Below, one piece after another: positions 27,687 through 47,252 of a stretch of 64,000 nt of DNA. A program made the translations under genes and the position numbers. The DNA comes from an uncultured beta proteobacterium (GTDB lineage: Bacteria > Pseudomonadota > Gammaproteobacteria > Burkholderiales > SG8-41): contig CADECM010000012.1 in NCBI GenBank assembly GCA_902825845.1, positions 1-64,000 on the forward strand, given 5' to 3'. A model generated the notes under the pieces. It was not told the origin of the DNA, made no database searches, and saw only the letters and a list, made by a program, of their open reading frames with translations. Within the stretch, counting starts at the first letter, position 1. Each line of letters starts with the position of its first letter.

Positions 27687-28202
27687 TCAGTCGATCAGGG
27701 TTTTCACCAGCGCCAGCACCAGCAGCGTGTAGCCGGCAGCAAGCAGGTCATCAAACATGACGCCAAAACCGTTCTTCAGCGTGCGGTCAAAATGGCGTAT
27801 CGGTGCCGGCTTGACGATATCAAAAAAGCGAAACAGCAGGAAAGCGCCGCACTGCCACGCCCATCCGGCCGGCGTGAACAGCAATACCAGCAGAAACGCC
27901 ACGGTTTCATCCCACACCATGCCACTGTGGTCGGACATCCCGAGCGCTCGTCCGGTGGCGTGGCAGGCCCACGTGCCAGTAATAAAAAGTACAATAAAAA
28001 CAAATAGTTGCATTACGGCAGCCGTGTGTGCCGCGAGCAGTGCATAGAGCGGAAACGCCAGCAGCGTACCGAATGTGCCCGGCGCAAATGGCGCCAACCC
28101 GATGCCGCCGGCAAACGCGATGCCATGCGCGGGATGCGCATAGACAAAACGCAGCGTGGGGTGCGCGCCGCGCAGCGGCGAGGGATCAGCCAAAGTGATC
28201 AA
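27687..28202 (-). CDS. pgpA: Phosphatidylglycerophosphatase A
   Basis: A 171-residue inner-membrane phosphatase that dephosphorylates PGP to phosphatidylglycerol. Conserved segments are GIGLAPFAPGTFGT, WDE in GMVWDETVAF, and FDIVKPAPI followed by GFGVMFDDLLAG. Three or four membrane helices are present. The start is a TTG overlapping the thiL 3' end (28202, or 28193). One membrane helix is encoded by a copy of the AT-rich junction motif (27993-28010), an unusual AT island in GC-rich coding sequence. Confidence 0.93.
   Translation of the reverse strand: MITLADPSPLRGAHPTLRFVYAHPAHGIAFAGGIGLAPFAPGTFGTLLAFPLYALLAAHTAAVMQLFVFIVLFITGTWACHATGRALGMSDHSGMVWDETVAFLLVLLFTPAGWAWQCGAFLLFRFFDIVKPAPIRHFDRTLKNGFGVMFDDLLAAGYTLLVLALVKTLID
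27993..28010 (-). repeat. AT-rich junction motif, copy 7, inside pgpA
   Basis: On the minus strand CAACTATTTGTTTTTATT, encoding Q-L-F-V-F-I of a membrane helix. It is the only copy inside a coding region and matches copy 1 at nearly every position. Confidence 0.45.
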
Positions 28203-29160
28203 AACCGGTTACGCCATCGAGCCTGACGCCTTCCCCCCGCGCGCTGACCACCCGAACCGGCGCCCCGCGGTACCCGCGCCGCCGTTTGAAAATGCTGCCG
28301 ACGCAGGTCACCGCCACGCCTGCGCGCGCGCCCGCGCGCAACACGGCGGCCCGCCGCGCGGCCGGCGCGGTAAAACACAGTTCGTAATCATCGCCGCCGG
28401 CGAGCGCCAAACGCCGGCCCACGCGCGTGGCGCGCATGGCCCGCAGCACGCGGGATACCGGCAGCGCGTCGACGTCGATTTGCGCGCACATGCCGGAGCG
28501 CTCGCAAACATGGCCGAGATCGGCAAGCAGGCCATCGGAAATATCGATCGCACTGTGCGCGATGCCGCGCAGCGCAGCACCCAACGCCACGCGCGGCACC
28601 GGGCGATCCAGACGCCGCGCGGCCGCGCGCAGTTGCGCCGCGGCGATGCGCACCTCACGCTTGCGCGCGGCCACGGCCAGCGCTGCATCGCCCAGCGTGC
28701 CCGACACCCACACCTCATCGCCCGCGCGTGCGCCGTCGCGGCGCAGCGCCTGGGCGGCAGGCACTTCCCCCATGATCTGCACGCACAGGTTCAGCGGCCC
28801 GCGCGTAGTATCGCCGCCGATCAAATCCACGCCATGCGCACGCGCCAGGCGCATGAACCCGCCCGTAAATGCCGCCAGCCAGCGCGTGTCCGCGCCGGGC
28901 AAGGCCAGCGCCAGCGTTGCCCAGCGCGGCGTCGCGCCCATTGCCGCCAGATCGGACAGGTTCACCGCCAGTGCCTTGTGGCCCAGCGCCGCGGGATCGG
29001 CACCTTTGAAAAAATGCCGCCCTTCAACCAGCATGTCCACGGATATCGCCAGTGTGTGGCCCCGCCGCACACGAATCAGCGCTGCATCGTCGCCCACGCC
29101 CAACAGCGTATGCCGCGTGCGATGCGTGAAGTACTTTTCGATCAGCGCAAATTCATTCAT
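28186..29160 (-). CDS. thiL: Thiamine-monophosphate kinase
   Basis: A 324-residue ThiL of the PurM/AIR synthase fold. It has the N-terminal FALIEKYF, the metal/ATP loops GVGDDAALI, SVDMLVEGRHF, NLSDLAAMGATP, GGDTTRG, and the C-terminal DISDGLLADLGH and GGDDYELCF. It phosphorylates thiamine monophosphate to the diphosphate. It overlaps pgpA by 17 nt and its ATG follows the stop of the upstream small membrane protein gene by one base. Confidence 0.96.
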   Translation of the reverse strand: MNEFALIEKYFTHRTRHTLLGVGDDAALIRVRRGHTLAISVDMLVEGRHFFKGADPAALGHKALAVNLSDLAAMGATPRWATLALALPGADTRWLAAFTGGFMRLARAHGVDLIGGDTTRGPLNLCVQIMGEVPAAQALRRDGARAGDEVWVSGTLGDAALAVAARKREVRIAAAQLRAAARRLDRPVPRVALGAALRGIAHSAIDISDGLLADLGHVCERSGMCAQIDVDALPVSRVLRAMRATRVGRRLALAGGDDYELCFTAPAARRAAVLRAGARAGVAVTCVGSIFKRRRGYRGAPVRVVSARGEGVRLDGVTGFDHFG

Positions 29161-29161
29161 C

Positions 29162-29419
29162 TCAGGTTTGCGGCGGCGATGCACCGGTGGCGCTGCCTTG
29201 CTGTTCGAGTTTCTGCTGCTCCTGCACCCATTTCTTCTTCAGCATGGACGGCATCCAGAAATCCACCGCTGCGAAGCCGAAAAAAAACAGAATCAGCATG
29301 GTGACCTTGTCCTCCGGCAGGAAGCTGCGGCCTGCCAGCAGGATGTAGCCGCCAATCACCAGATTCAACACGCCGGCGGCGTAAAAAAGGAAAATGCGTT
29401 TTCTCAGTTTGTCAGGCAT
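29162..29419 (-). CDS. Small membrane protein with two transmembrane helices
   Basis: An 85-residue protein. After a basic N-terminus (MPDKLRKR) come two hydrophobic helices (about residues 10-30 and 39-60) and a charged, glutamine-rich cytoplasmic tail. The start is taken at 29419, where GGAG stands 6 nt upstream; the frame is open a further 15 codons. It sits between nusB and thiL in the housekeeping operon, but I do not recognise a named family. Confidence 0.8.
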   Translation of the reverse strand: MPDKLRKRIFLFYAAGVLNLVIGGYILLAGRSFLPEDKVTMLILFFFGFAAVDFWMPSMLKKKWVQEQQKLEQQGSATGASPPQT

Positions 29420-41441: not shown

Positions 41442-42977
41442 CTACCCGGCGGACCCAGGTGCCCTGAAATACAGCCAGTCAAAATCGTGACCACTCTCCA
41501 GCACCCCGCCCGCCCGCAGGATCATCGGCGTATCCGCATCGCCAAACGTGGCTTCCACCGGCTCGCGGCCGCTGAAATGATCGCGTCGCATGACGACATA
41601 CAGATTGCCGGAAGGGGACGCTTGCGCGCTCAGCATGATGCCGCACTCCTGCGTACGCCCCTGCCGCGCCCCCGTCTGGGTACGCAGGAACACCGGCAGC
41701 GCGGCTCGGGACAAGACCTGTATGCCGAGCTGGTGCTGCCGGTATTGGAGTTCGTTCACACGGCGGATAATGCCGATGCTCCACGAAGACGCCGTCTGCG
41801 TTCGCGTTGCCACCAGCATTCCCACGCGCAATCCTTCGCCTTTTCCCTGCGGCACGATCACCCCGCAGCCGCCGCTGCTGACGTCCTCCGCGATCCATGA
41901 ATCATTGAGCAACGCGCCCGCGGCGGCAAGCCCTCCCGCGGCCTCGGGCGCGATCAGTTCCAGCACATGTTGAAAGCCTTGCACCGAGTTCAGGCGTTCG
42001 TCCGTCTTTTGGCGGGCCGCTGCGCGCGGCGGCAATTCCTTTGCCCAGTGAGTGCGCAGGTGCCTCAGCACGCGCACCACAATATTGTCTTCCGCGCCCA
42101 AACCCAGGTCCAGTCCCGCGGGCAGGCGCCCGGAACCACGCACGATGGACTGCATCGCGCGCAGTGTGTCGCGGGCCTCGCCGACATCAAAAAAGCGCGT
42201 CGCCGGACTGACTGGGGCGGATGGAACGAGACGCAGCGGCGGGCGCGATCCATCCAGATCGAAAAAGTAATCGTAATCATCCTTCAGGCTGGCGCTGCAG
42301 CGCAATTTCGGCGTCATATAAACGACCAGCCGCTCGGCGATATCCTGCTCGATGGGCGACAACGCGCTGGGCGAAGCCGCCCAATACATCATCAGCCGCA
42401 ATAACTCATCGTTGGGGGACGCCTGTATGCCACTGAAAAGATCGATGGTCCGGGCCGCGCCATCCACGGTTTCCGCCAGCATGACAAAGCGCCCGCACTC
42501 ACCCCAGAATTCCGAGCGCACTGCGCCGTAGCGCAGCAGCACCCATTTCAACTGGTAACGCAAGGCACGCAGTCCGCGGGCCGCCAACAATGGCAACTGC
42601 GCCGTCATGCCGTTGGGCGTGCCGTCGGCCAGACTGCATTGCCGGGCGCAGGCAAGATAGCCGTCGCCAAGCAACTTCCAGAAATCGCTTGCGGCCTTCC
42701 ACAAACGCCGGCCTTGCGGATCGTCGTCCGGCAACCTGACGTAGCTGTCCACCAGGCGCTCATGCGACTTGCGCACCGCCTCGTCGATCAGATCGAGCAA
42801 TTCGAAGCGACGCCGCAGCCTGAAGCCGGCAGTCTCGTTAATGGACACCAGCCATGGATTGGCTTCTTCCAGCGTCCTGCACGGGTCCCTGTGGGAAAAC
42901 GCGCCGACAATCTTTCTGGCCGCCTTGTCGTTTGCCAGCGGATGATCTACTTTGTCGCGCTTAAGCCAGGCCAGCAT
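41442..42977 (-). CDS. Large PilZ-like protein, paralogue B of three
   Basis: 511 residues with the same plan as A and C: an N-terminal WLKRDKVDHPLAN start, ELLDLIDEAVR, LWKAASDFWKLL, RYQLKWVLLRYG, LSPIEQDIAERLV and a YDYFFDLDGSRPPLRL segment. The C-terminal part has D-x-S-x-x-G (D365, S367, G370) with a KxxxR (K324-R328) instead of RxxxR at the usual distance before it. GGAGG lies 4 nt before the ATG. 63 bp separate it from A. I do not recognise a named family; c-di-GMP reception is a hypothesis. Confidence 0.82.
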   Translation of the reverse strand: MLAWLKRDKVDHPLANDKAARKIVGAFSHRDPCRTLEEANPWLVSINETAGFRLRRRFELLDLIDEAVRKSHERLVDSYVRLPDDDPQGRRLWKAASDFWKLLGDGYLACARQCSLADGTPNGMTAQLPLLAARGLRALRYQLKWVLLRYGAVRSEFWGECGRFVMLAETVDGAARTIDLFSGIQASPNDELLRLMMYWAASPSALSPIEQDIAERLVVYMTPKLRCSASLKDDYDYFFDLDGSRPPLRLVPSAPVSPATRFFDVGEARDTLRAMQSIVRGSGRLPAGLDLGLGAEDNIVVRVLRHLRTHWAKELPPRAAARQKTDERLNSVQGFQHVLELIAPEAAGGLAAAGALLNDSWIAEDVSSGGCGVIVPQGKGEGLRVGMLVATRTQTASSWSIGIIRRVNELQYRQHQLGIQVLSRAALPVFLRTQTGARQGRTQECGIMLSAQASPSGNLYVVMRRDHFSGREPVEATFGDADTPMILRAGGVLESGHDFDWLYFRAPGSAG

Positions 42978-43170
42978 GCGGCCTCCGGCTATGCGCGCCT
43001 GTAACAACGTGAGTAGGGGCTATGACTGACAACACGGTTCCATGCAGGATTGAAGGCGCGAGGATTATGACACTTCGCGACACGCCAGACCAATAACGCG
43101 TTCGCCGTTCGCGCCATCCATCACGCGTCGCAGACCCTCGCGTCACCCGGATTCATCCACGTCGCGGCGC

Positions 43171-44712
43171 TCACAACACGGTATCCAGCAACTTATACCG
43201 CAGCCAGTCGAAATCCTGCCCGGTTTCCACCACGCCACCCGGATCAAGCGTCACGGTGGCGGCAGGCGCGCCATAGCTTGCCTCCAGCGATTCCCGTCCG
43301 TCAAAAAGGTCACGGCGCGCCACGATATGCAGACTGCCCGTGCGCGACGGCCGCGCCGCCAGCAACAGTGCCGTCTGACGTCTGCCACCCTGGCTGGCGC
43401 CACTCTTGCGCAGGTAAATCAAAATCGCCGACTTTGAAATCAACTGTATGCCAACACGGTGCTGGCGGTGCTCGTCGCTCTTCACGCGCCGAATGATGCC
43501 GACTTCCCACACTGACGCCGTCTCCGTGCGCAAGGCCAGCAGGGTTCCCACGCGCAACCACTCACCCTTGCCGGCCGGGACGATCACGCCATAACCGCCC
43601 GGGCTCACATCCTCGGCGATCCATGCGTCGTGCGACAGCGTCGCGGAAAAATCCAGTCCCTCGCTCACCCCAGGCTCGATGACAGCCAGCACATTTTGAT
43701 AGCCGTGCGTCACCAGCAGACGCATCGCAGTGCGCCGCCGCACGGCGGATCGCGCCGGCATCTCCTTCGCCCAGTTCAACCCGAGATGCCGCAGCACACG
43801 CGTAACCGACGGCAAATCCGCCGTGGATCCCCAATCGACACTCCGCGGCAGCGTGTCTGCAACGCCGACTTCGGCGGCCTGCGCCTGTAGCGACTGCCAC
43901 ACGCCGCCGCCGTCGAAATAGCGGGTGGCGGCGCCCACCGGCACGGCGGACGAGAAGCGCAGCGGCGGCCGGGCGGCGTCCAGGTCAAAACAATAGTCAC
44001 AGCCGGGCCACGGCTGCGTTCCCAGACGATATCCGGGCGCGTGATGTCCCACTACGCGTTCGGCGATATCCTGCTCCAGTGGCGACAAGCCGCTCGGCGA
44101 AGCCGCCCAGAACATCATGGCGCGCAAAAACTCCAGTGCGTGGGAACTGGCCGCGCCGCCGTCCGCATACATGTCCAGAGGCTTGTCGACGGCACCCGCG
44201 GATTCAGCCAGACGGGCGCAAAGCGCCATGTCTGACCAGAACTCCGGGCGCAGCACGCCGTAGCGCATCAGCACCCAATGCATCTGCTGGCGTAGTGCAT
44301 GCGTTGCCCGCGCGGCCAGCAAGGACAGCCGCGGCTTGAATGTCTGGGGTACATCGCCGTTGTCCTGTGCCTGCCGCACGCAGGCGAGATACGCCGAACC
44401 AAGACTGTTCCAGAAATCGGTTACCACTTTCCAAATGCGCTTTTCCTGAACCAGTTCGTCCTGTGTGCGGGCGTGGTATGCGTGGCGAACCCGTTCCTGC
44501 GCCTTGCGCGTCGCCGCATCAATCTGGTCTATCACTTCGAAACGCCGATCGACCTTGTATGCGTCTGCCTCATTGACCGAATCCAGCCAGTAACAGGCAT
44601 CCTCCAGTGTCTTCAGCGGATCCCTGGCCGGAAAACCATCGATGATCCGCTTTAGCTCCCGGGCATTGGCCAGCGGATGGTCGACCTTGTCGCCTTTAAA
44701 CCAGTTCAGCAT
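43171..44712 (-). CDS. Large PilZ-like protein, paralogue C of three
   Basis: 513 residues, closest to B (same N-terminus, WFKGDKVDHPLAN). It is the best conserved as a PilZ protein: RTAMR (R327-R331) 37 residues before D-x-S-x-x-G (D368, S370, G373), followed by VIVPAGKGEWLRVGTL. The middle region is helical with RQQMHWVLMRYG and LSPLEQDIAERVV. It is the first of the three PilZ-like genes in the transcribed direction and lies 101 bp after the CBS gene. The start is set by homology with B; there is no good ribosome binding site and the frame is open to 44793. Confidence 0.82.
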   Translation of the reverse strand: MLNWFKGDKVDHPLANARELKRIIDGFPARDPLKTLEDACYWLDSVNEADAYKVDRRFEVIDQIDAATRKAQERVRHAYHARTQDELVQEKRIWKVVTDFWNSLGSAYLACVRQAQDNGDVPQTFKPRLSLLAARATHALRQQMHWVLMRYGVLRPEFWSDMALCARLAESAGAVDKPLDMYADGGAASSHALEFLRAMMFWAASPSGLSPLEQDIAERVVGHHAPGYRLGTQPWPGCDYCFDLDAARPPLRFSSAVPVGAATRYFDGGGVWQSLQAQAAEVGVADTLPRSVDWGSTADLPSVTRVLRHLGLNWAKEMPARSAVRRRTAMRLLVTHGYQNVLAVIEPGVSEGLDFSATLSHDAWIAEDVSPGGYGVIVPAGKGEWLRVGTLLALRTETASVWEVGIIRRVKSDEHRQHRVGIQLISKSAILIYLRKSGASQGGRRQTALLLAARPSRTGSLHIVARRDLFDGRESLEASYGAPAATVTLDPGGVVETGQDFDWLRYKLLDTVL

Positions 44713-44812
44713 GGGATGGGAAAATTCGACTCGCGGCAAGATTGGCGATGCCCGCGCATCCGGCTTGTGCACAACCGCGGCAGCGGCCGGCAAAGCGCCC
44801 GTGTCAGCCGGA

Positions 44813-45259
44813 TCAAACGTCTTCCTCCGGCCAGTGCTTGATGTAACGCTTGAGCAGGCGATTTTCGAAGCTTGCTTCCTTGATTACCGCCTTGGCAATA
44901 TCGTGGAATGAAATCACCCCCAGCAGTTTGCCATCCTCCCGCACCGGGACGTAGCGCACATGTTGCTGTGTCATGCGTTCGCGCAGGCTGTCGGCACTGT
45001 CCTCCAGCACGCATACCAGCGGCTCGCGCACCATGACCTCGCGCACCGGGAGATCGCCGAGGTTGCCGTGGCGCGCATCCAGTGCGCGCAGCACCTCGCG
45101 AAACGTCAGCATGCCCTGCATTTCGCCATCCGCCATAACCACCAGCGAGCCGATATCGTTCTTCACCATGGTGGCGACCGCATCCGACACCAGGCCGTCC
45201 GGCGCGATGCTGAAAATCGTATTGCCTTTGAGGCTGAGAATGTCGCGGATAATCATCAT
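44813..45259 (-). CDS. CBS-pair domain protein
   Basis: 148 residues: two CBS domains (about 8-60 and 72-130; VSDAVATMVKNDIGSLVVM and LRERMTQQHVRYVPVRE) and a short charged tail. CBS pairs bind adenosine nucleotides and regulate attached or partner proteins. It is upstream of the three PilZ-like genes and parallel to them. An ATGATG pair marks the start at 45259. Confidence 0.88.
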   Translation of the reverse strand: MMIIRDILSLKGNTIFSIAPDGLVSDAVATMVKNDIGSLVVMADGEMQGMLTFREVLRALDARHGNLGDLPVREVMVREPLVCVLEDSADSLRERMTQQHVRYVPVREDGKLLGVISFHDIAKAVIKEASFENRLLKRYIKHWPEEDV

Positions 45260-45361: not shown

Positions 45362-46006
45362 ATGCGCATGTCCCAACGTATACGCGGCATCACCGACACG
45401 GAAGCCACCGGGCCCACCAAAGATCTGTTCGATGCCAGCAATATTATGCTGGGCCGCACCGCCAATTTGCAGCGTATTTTGTCACACAGTCCAATGCTGG
45501 CACGCTGGTTTTTGCCGCTGGTGGCTGCGGTGCGCCAGCCCACTGCAGGCGCGGTATCCGACGTGCGCCTGCGCAACCTGTCGTGCCTGAAAACATCCAC
45601 CGTAAACAACTGCAACTACTGAACGCAGCATAATCGGGTGCTTGGTCAAGCACTGGGACTCACCGACGCGGAATTCGACGCGTTGCAATCTCCGGATTAT
45701 CTGTCCAGTCCGTTGTTCACTGACAAGGAAAAGTCGGTTATGGCGTGGTCGGAGGCCATGACGCTCAACACGGCCAAGCACGACGACAGCGTATGGAATG
45801 ATTTGCGCAAACATTGCAGCGACGCGGAAATCGTTGAAGTGTCGATGATGTGCGGCCTGTTCAACATGATCAACCGTCTTAACGACTCCTTCCGCACCGA
45901 GCTCGAATCGGAGGAATACAACAAGCGCCAGCACGGCGCGGTGGGCGTCACCGCAAAAGCGCTTGAAGACTACGCCTGCCGCATCTGTCAGCAGCGAAAT
46001 CCGTAG
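45362..46006 (+). CDS. AhpD-like/carboxymuconolactone decarboxylase family selenoprotein (in-frame TGA as Sec87)
   Basis: One reading frame of 215 codons interrupted by a single TGA at 45620-45622. Up to it: LRNLSCLKTSTVNNCNY; after it, without frameshift: TQHNRVLGQALGLT and a full CMD-type C-terminal half (DAEIVEVSMMCGLFNMINRL). Relatives have CxYCxxH here, so the TGA replaces the second cysteine (C84, Sec87, H90). A SECIS-like hairpin follows. A CxxC/CxxU pair would reduce peroxide or act as a thiol oxidoreductase. Alternative readings: a recent nonsense mutation or sequencing error, or two separate ORFs with the second starting at GTG 45638. selA/B/C/D are not in the window, so genome context must decide. 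Confidence 0.75.
45636..45656 (+). promoter_or_regulatory. SECIS-like hairpin downstream of the in-frame TGA
   Basis: A 6-bp stem GTGCTT/AAGCAC (45638-45643 and 45648-45653) closes a GGTC tetraloop (45644-45647). The loop starts 21 nt after the TGA, in the range that SelB needs. The E. coli fdhF SECIS likewise presents GGUC between two GC pairs about 18 nt after UGA. It also encodes protein here, so its pairing is noteworthy. Confidence 0.65.
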
Positions 46007-46049: not shown

Positions 46050-47252
46050 TCAAATCACACCACTCTCACGCAACCGCTGCTGTTGTGCCGCGCCGTAGCC
46101 CAACTCACTCAGCACGTCGCCGGTATGTTCGCCGAGTCGCGGCCCGAGCCAGCGCGTGCCGCCGGGTGTCTCGGTCAATTTCGGCGTAACCGCCGGGATG
46201 CGCATGGGTCTGCCGTCGGGCAGTTTCCACTGCTCGATCATCTTGCGCGCCTTGTAGTGCATGTCGTTGACGATATCTTCGGGATCGTAGACGCGGCCTG
46301 AGGGAATTTCCGCAGCTTCGAGCGCCTTCAGCACATCAGCCATGTCGTGCCGGCGCGTCCATGTTTCGATGGCCTGATCCAGTTCCTGAGTGCGCGGCAC
46401 GCGTCCGTTGTTGGTGGCCAGCGCCGGGTCGTCGGCGAGATCGGGCCGGCCTGCGCAGTGCATCATGCGCTTGAAGATGGCGTCGTTGTTGGCGCCGATG
46501 ATCACGTATTTGCCGTCGCGCGTGGCGTAGGTATTGGACGGCGTAATACCCGGCAGCGCGTTGCCGGCGCGCTCACGCTTGAATCCCAGCACATCAAATT
46601 CCGGGATGAAGCTCTCCATCATGTTGAAGACCGATTCATAGAGCGCGACATCGACGATTTGCCCCTTGCCGCCATTCGCGGTGCGGTGATGCAACGCCAT
46701 CATGGCGCCGATCACCCCGTGCAGCGCGGCAATGCCGTCGCCGATTGAAATGCCCATGCGCACCGGCGGCTGCTCGGGATAGCCCGTCACGTACCGCATG
46801 CCGCTCATCGCCTCCGCCACGACGCCAAATCCAGGCCGGTCGCGATAGGGCCCGTCCTGGCCGTAGCCGGACAACCGCACCATGATCAGTCCGGGATTGA
46901 TCTCGGAAAGTTGCTGCCAGCCGATGTTCCATTTTTCCAGCGCGCCTGGGCGGAAATTTTCCACTACGATATCGGCATCGCGGACGAGTTGCCGCACGAT
47001 CTCCTGCCCCTCGGGCGCGCGCAGATTCACCGTCACGGATTTCTTGTTGCGCGCCTGCACGTACCACCACAGCGAGGTGCCTTCGTACATTTTTCGCCAC
47101 TGCCGCAACTGATCGCCGCCATCGGGCGACTCGATCTTGATCACCTCGGCGCCGAACTCGGCCAGCATGCGCGCGCAAAAAGGGCCTGCGATCAGCGTCC
47201 CCAGTTCAATTACTTTGATGCCGGCCAGCGGCCCCATGTTTGTTTCAGTCAT
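46050..47252 (-). CDS. CaiB/BaiF class III CoA-transferase
   Basis: A 400-residue class III transferase with IKVIELGTLIAGPF, NKKSVTVNLRAP, VENFRPGALE and the lid segment ALPGITPSNTYAT. The usual catalytic aspartate position is glycine (G143 in PGFGVVAEAMSG, with E147 in the Q position), a variant shared by many succinyl/itaconyl-type members. It probably transfers CoA to a dicarboxylic acid. An AGGAGG is placed before the ATG. It is convergent with the selenoprotein gene. Confidence 0.92.
   Translation of the reverse strand: MTETNMGPLAGIKVIELGTLIAGPFCARMLAEFGAEVIKIESPDGGDQLRQWRKMYEGTSLWWYVQARNKKSVTVNLRAPEGQEIVRQLVRDADIVVENFRPGALEKWNIGWQQLSEINPGLIMVRLSGYGQDGPYRDRPGFGVVAEAMSGMRYVTGYPEQPPVRMGISIGDGIAALHGVIGAMMALHHRTANGGKGQIVDVALYESVFNMMESFIPEFDVLGFKRERAGNALPGITPSNTYATRDGKYVIIGANNDAIFKRMMHCAGRPDLADDPALATNNGRVPRTQELDQAIETWTRRHDMADVLKALEAAEIPSGRVYDPEDIVNDMHYKARKMIEQWKLPDGRPMRIPAVTPKLTETPGGTRWLGPRLGEHTGDVLSELGYGAAQQQRLRESGVI

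Follow-up and report, generated by a model that had tools for sequence, protein, structure and literature searches.

Within a window of 64,000 nucleotides (the whole stretch of DNA analyzed here), we find a gene that almost certainly encodes a selenoprotein, with selenocysteine (Sec) predicted at an in-frame UGA codon. The overall explanation, namely that of a Sec-containing AhpD-like redox protein whose UGA is decoded via SelB, tRNA-Sec, and a GGUC hairpin, is very likely in our estimation. An earlier note on this DNA, made from the sequence alone, had proposed a selenoprotein at this position and a betaproteobacterial host. The former proposal is borne out by the presence of the sel genes, the conservation of the TGA, the Cys in distant relatives, and a SECIS hairpin, and the latter fits most of the nearest sequence records. 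The features of the gene and its surroundings in the window are as follows.

45368..46006 (+): putative Sec-containing AhpD-like gene; open frame with the TGA read as Sec, start from orthologue comparison, dN/dS about 0.15 on either side
45611..45622 (+): codons of the AhpD redox motif C-N-Y-U; C84, Y86, U87, and H90 invariant in the orthologue alignment, TGA in 33/33
45620..45622 (+): in-frame UGA, predicted Sec codon
45637..45654 (+): predicted SECIS hairpin; GGUC loop at 45644-45647, closed by a stem of 45637-45643 paired to 45648-45654
45977..45988 (+): codons of the C-terminal C-R-I-C (C206 and C209); both Cys invariant in the orthologue alignments
44813..45259 (-): CBS-domain protein (Pfam CBS, 71.5 bits), divergent upstream neighbor outside the system, its adjacency conserved only within the genus
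46050..47252 (-): CoA-transferase family III (Pfam, 426 bits), convergent downstream neighbor outside the system, kept in part of the genus

A conserved reading frame across the TGA

The gene comprises 212 codons, with Sec as codon 85 and TAG (46004-46006) as the stop. Residue numbers follow the P0001 translation, which starts at 45362 and in which Sec is residue 87. As the earlier note had described, one frame runs through TGA 45620-45622 and its motif C-N-Y-(TGA)-T-Q-H, and the wider surroundings read N-N-C-N-Y-U-T-Q-H-N, placing the TGA at the second redox position. The single frame proposed for 45362-46006 thus stands, but its start shifts: the most likely start is ATG 45368 (M-S-Q-R), two codons past ATG 45362, because the orthologues begin with M-[ST]-Q-R. 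We also agree that standard gene calling would split the gene, as automatic annotation breaks such genes in two.

Among 149 genomes near the source genome, close homologues were found at 45 places in 44 genomes, all from the same bacterial family and 66-90% identical (the window itself being 100%). Each of the 45 places holds one TGA inside the match, and the Sec column is TGA in all 33 distinct orthologous sequences of the codon alignment; chance is excluded because the TGA recurs in all close places and in the same codon column. A Cys form was not found among these close orthologues (45 places, 44 genomes). Across the 33 orthologues, pairwise dN/dS has a median of 0.153 upstream of the TGA and 0.141 downstream, and by this measure purifying selection is equal on both sides. 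Four metagenome assemblies with genes 84-88% identical to that of the window are labeled Bordetella parapertussis (L006, L007, L008, and L012); the label looks wrong because they group with uncultured betaproteobacteria.

The earlier note had placed the TGA within an AhpD/carboxymuconolactone decarboxylase (CMD) domain. Profiles do align across the TGA, but the protein is a divergent member as judged from its profile matches, all of which lie below their cut-offs. Pfam CMD gives 16.5 bits against a cut-off of 23 on the window protein and matches all 11 sampled orthologues at E 0.01 or better, while the curated models spanning the TGA reach 50.4 of 81.8 bits (TIGR01926), 61.7 of 310 (NF053654), and 36.4 of 175 (NF041238). 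Even alone, each half gives a weak TIGR01926 match, located at the end of the profile where it should fall. Searched against the PDB, the family profile finds AhpD-like chains at E 1e-14, and such chains are also the first fold matches of the predicted structure. The latter has a mean pLDDT of 58, with parts of the core above 90, on a shallow alignment, and does not place the C-terminal CxxC tail.

Outside the family of the window, a profile search of 369 genomes of the class yields five distant relatives at E <1e-20, and all five carry Cys in the Sec column (CVYC, CRYC in three, and CQYC). The same column is Cys in the solved AhpD-like chains 2gmy, 2ijc, 2o4d, and 7xw1. That the TGA replaces the second redox Cys, as first proposed, is upheld by this alignment; the two checks suggested at the time, namely the residue in homologues and conservation downstream of the stop, give TGA in all near homologues, Cys in the distant ones, and a conserved downstream part (dN/dS 0.14). 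In 398 genomes of the phylum, the profile found no relative at that level except the window's own, and the viral contigs searched hold no relative of the gene. Within the genome samples searched, the protein family thus looks restricted to one bacterial family of uncultured betaproteobacteria.

Conserved gene context extends little beyond the genus. The gene is isolated and only some members of the genus retain the CoA-transferase, so the neighbors say little. Farther upstream, two adjacent related long ORFs (521 and 540 aa; 41442-44793, - strand) look like a tandem duplication, and further genomes of the genus show such a pair next to the gene as well.

Hairpin, decoding machinery, and further candidate Sec genes

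Directly after the UGA, the hairpin GGUGCUU-GGUC-AAGCACU combines a 7-bp stem with a 4-nt loop, and it is the loop that lies 21 nt past the UGA. The published SECIS model for bacteria (PMC13188914) calls for a loop of 3-9 nt with a G in its first two positions, a stem of 4-16 bp, a spacing of 16-37 nt, and a minimum free energy (MFE) of at most -7.5, and the hairpin agrees with it on every point. Its MFE is -10.4 kcal/mol, a value that on its own is ordinary (z = -0.85). The stronger signal lies in its codons. Of the 94 alignment columns whose residue is invariant and could be written with alternative codons, just four show a single codon, and these are the four consecutive hairpin codons GTG CTT GGT CAA; CTT is frozen here even though these genes seldom choose it for Leu. 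When the Sec paralogues are included in the alignment, pairing is kept in 98.3% of the hairpin cells, and two base pairs show double changes (U-A to C-G and U-A to A-U). None of 500 shuffles and none of the slid versions reaches the covariation score of the hairpin itself. A covariance-model scan of the genome returns the window site (E 4e-14) and that of the C56 paralogue (3e-13), with the next match at 0.03; the scan speaks for specificity rather than discovery, because these two sites helped build the model. A third site, on C11, was discarded, as it lies in no convincing gene. Frozen at the codon level throughout the family, the hairpin is a clear-cut case from nature of selection acting on a SECIS element within coding sequence.

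The source genome (6.0 Mb in 207 contigs, given as 100% complete) encodes the entire Sec machinery.

C6:24303-25670: selA
C6:25725-27608: selB
L069:5764-6669 (G000:C6), between selB and selC: thioredoxin-reductase (TrxR)-like flavoprotein gene with a C-A-D-C site (TIGR01292, 214 bits, below cut-off)
C6:28747-28837: selC (tRNA-Sec, anticodon TCA)
C64:14863-15789 (L059 from 1465, +): selD

The absence of sel genes had been named as the first ground on which the selenoprotein reading would fall. All four are found, and that ground is therefore removed. The selD gene is itself a candidate Sec gene, with an in-frame TGA and the reading GGGUGCK. A weak selD-like match within the window (28186-29184, -) proved to be thiamine-phosphate kinase (ThiL). 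The order selA - selB - TrxR-like - selC is shared by the source genome and all six further genomes of the family with a long enough stretch (L103, L105-L109). No selA was seen in two of the 44 gene-bearing genomes (G058 and G065), both of which are fragmented and 84-88% complete. Comparing selA with the gene (42/44 against 25/30 genomes) gives a Fisher p of 0.11, with little variation among genomes.

At least six candidate Sec genes are present in the source genome: four AhpD-like genes, SelD, and one UGSC-like gene. The three AhpD-like paralogues of the window gene all carry their TGA in C-x-Y-U.

L062 2210-3607 (-), C56:34486: AhpD-like Sec paralogue; two-domain fusion, the second domain without both redox residues
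L063 2217-2840 (+), C13:14228: AhpD-like Sec paralogue
L064 1918-2514 (-), C4:90483: AhpD-like Sec paralogue

The C4-type paralogue clusters with relatives from the class that carry Cys, and also with one in G053 (L073 1711-2304, +) that has Ser (TCG) at the Sec column; the redox residue is therefore lost in the G053 copy. In another genome (G052:C6, L067 1650-7165), a stretch of about 6 kb holds three Sec AhpD-like paralogues; genes for a TctC-type receptor and an acyl-CoA dehydrogenase-like protein accompany them, and this clustering suggests a shared pathway. The UGSC-family-like gene (L069 347-2107, -) is situated beside selA and has an in-frame TGA (U-G-A-C); it scores 51.9 bits against the NF041046 cut-off of 125 and was not found in seven other selA regions. 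In the two FdhA-type genes whose active site could be read, the residue is Cys (RLCHASS and RICHSTT). A survey from 2006 assigned one selenoprotein family to the betaproteobacteria and named no selenoprotein other than FdhA for them (PMC1794560). With Cys in the readable FdhA-type genes and at least six Sec candidates, the present lineage therefore departs from the FdhA-only picture.

Alternative readings and proposed role

Two rival explanations do without selenium. The TGA could have arisen from a Cys codon (TGC/TGT) by pseudogenization or sequencing error, with the protein stopping at residue 84. Decay does occur in this family, as G016 holds a copy with an internal deletion and one orthologue (L017, L007) contains an additional in-frame TAG. 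However, separate assemblies have the same TGA in all close places and selection is equally strong before and after it; the conserved TGA and the conserved downstream frame rule this reading out, and we give it next to no weight. Scarcely more credible is that UGA stands for an ordinary amino acid (Trp or Cys), be it lineage-wide or just in this gene, through a suppressor tRNA or a reassigned codon. Such decoding would agree with a frame open on both sides, but general reassignment is rejected because UGA also serves as the final stop codon in several orthologues (L006, L009, L012, L021, and L025), and the presence of tRNA-Sec and SelB and of a SECIS element after the TGA likewise argues against it.

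A third alternative accepts the selenoprotein and assigns its CxxU to a specialized reaction on an organic substrate, comparable to the CMD-family debrominase Bmp8. We deem this possible but rather unlikely. Bmp8 turns up among the relatives by both sequence and fold, genes for a CoA-transferase III and an acyl-CoA dehydrogenase are neighbors in the window, and the Sec AhpD cluster of G052 also lies beside an acyl-CoA dehydrogenase-like gene. The proton relay known from AhpD is incomplete as well. On the other hand, the gene stands alone between opposite-strand genes, the downstream CoA-transferase is retained only in part of the genus, and its motif is the one found in AhpD proteins of the thiol-redox type.

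By analogy with AhpD, we moderately favor a role as Sec-dependent peroxidase or disulfide adaptor. In AhpD of Mycobacterium tuberculosis and PA0269 of Pseudomonas aeruginosa, the redox site consists of a CxxC and a His with a five-residue proton relay (PMC3141380). The relay of the window protein (Glu at -12 and His at +4 in AhpD) is incomplete, as an invariant Asn72 replaces the Glu and the His is found at +3. With these residues out of place, classical peroxidase activity may be weak; with C84, Y86, and U87 in place, the protein should work like an AhpD thiol-redox site equipped with a selenolate.

Considering its sequence, predicted structure, and conservation, we propose that UGA 45620-45622 would be decoded as Sec by SelB and tRNA-Sec with the aid of the GGUC hairpin. 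On the model of AhpD, the selenolate taking the place of the second Cys of C-x-x-C would then form a selenenylsulfide with C84 upon reducing a peroxide or disulfide. More speculatively, an enzyme of the thioredoxin-reductase type may re-reduce it, perhaps by way of the C-terminal CxxC. C206-x-x-C209 is kept in all orthologues and has no counterpart in the other AhpD paralogues of the genome, and we infer that it may resolve the selenenylsulfide. The TrxR-like enzyme encoded between selB and selC is, judged by gene order, a candidate electron donor, and the order selB - TrxR-like - selC makes this proposal testable. Taken furthest, these elements would describe a distinct subfamily with a two-stage redox relay within a single chain, in which C84-x-x-U87 is resolved by C206-x-x-C209 with electrons from the selB/selC-adjacent enzyme, and the betaproteobacterial family would retain its Sec machinery in large part for such AhpD types, not for formate dehydrogenase; this wider scheme is tentative and more doubtful than probable.

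Relation to known AhpD-like selenoproteins

AhpD-like selenoproteins as such were already known, as the earlier note had stated. CxxU forms were reported in the Sargasso Sea survey of 2005 (PMC1088965), AhpD-like 1 and 2 selenoproteins in the GOS data (PMC2398784), and a 2026 review lists AhpD-like selenoproteins under TIGR01926 (PMC13188914). The window protein shares with them the AhpD/CMD-type domain, the predicted Sec in place of the second redox Cys, and a SECIS element directly after the UGA. It differs in that its branch lies below the TIGR01926 cut-off, has an invariant C-terminal CxxC, and has no Cys close orthologue among those found. The best family matches are two NCBIfam "(seleno)protein" models, NF053654 (GroundWater_YciW) and NF041238 (AhpD_rel_CFYUT), both named for AhpD relatives with Sec and both extending across the TGA; being far below both cut-offs, the window protein is a member of neither.

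With AhpD of M. tuberculosis and PA0269 (2o4d, 2ijc, and 7xw1), the protein has the core helical fold and the CxxC site in common, its predicted Sec aligning with Cys51 of PA0269. It departs from them by Sec for Cys, Asn72 for Glu, His at +3 instead of +4, a longer N-terminus, and the C-terminal CxxC. The Sec AhpD paralogues of the same genome (C56, C13, and C4) have the same C-x-Y-U with an in-frame TGA, but are only 26-37% identical to the window protein and are devoid of the C-terminal CxxC. The C56 hairpin has the same register and the same GGUC loop as that of the window, whereas the C4 hairpin presents a GGUC loop on a different stem.

In short, sequence comparison sets the window protein and its orthologues apart as a separate branch of predicted AhpD selenoproteins, with scores under the thresholds of all the curated AhpD-related models matched. 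Less expected than an AhpD-like selenoprotein itself are a branch with predicted Sec in every copy found and an invariant C-terminal CxxC, the three further Sec AhpD paralogues, and a betaproteobacterial selenoproteome whose readable FdhA genes carry Cys.
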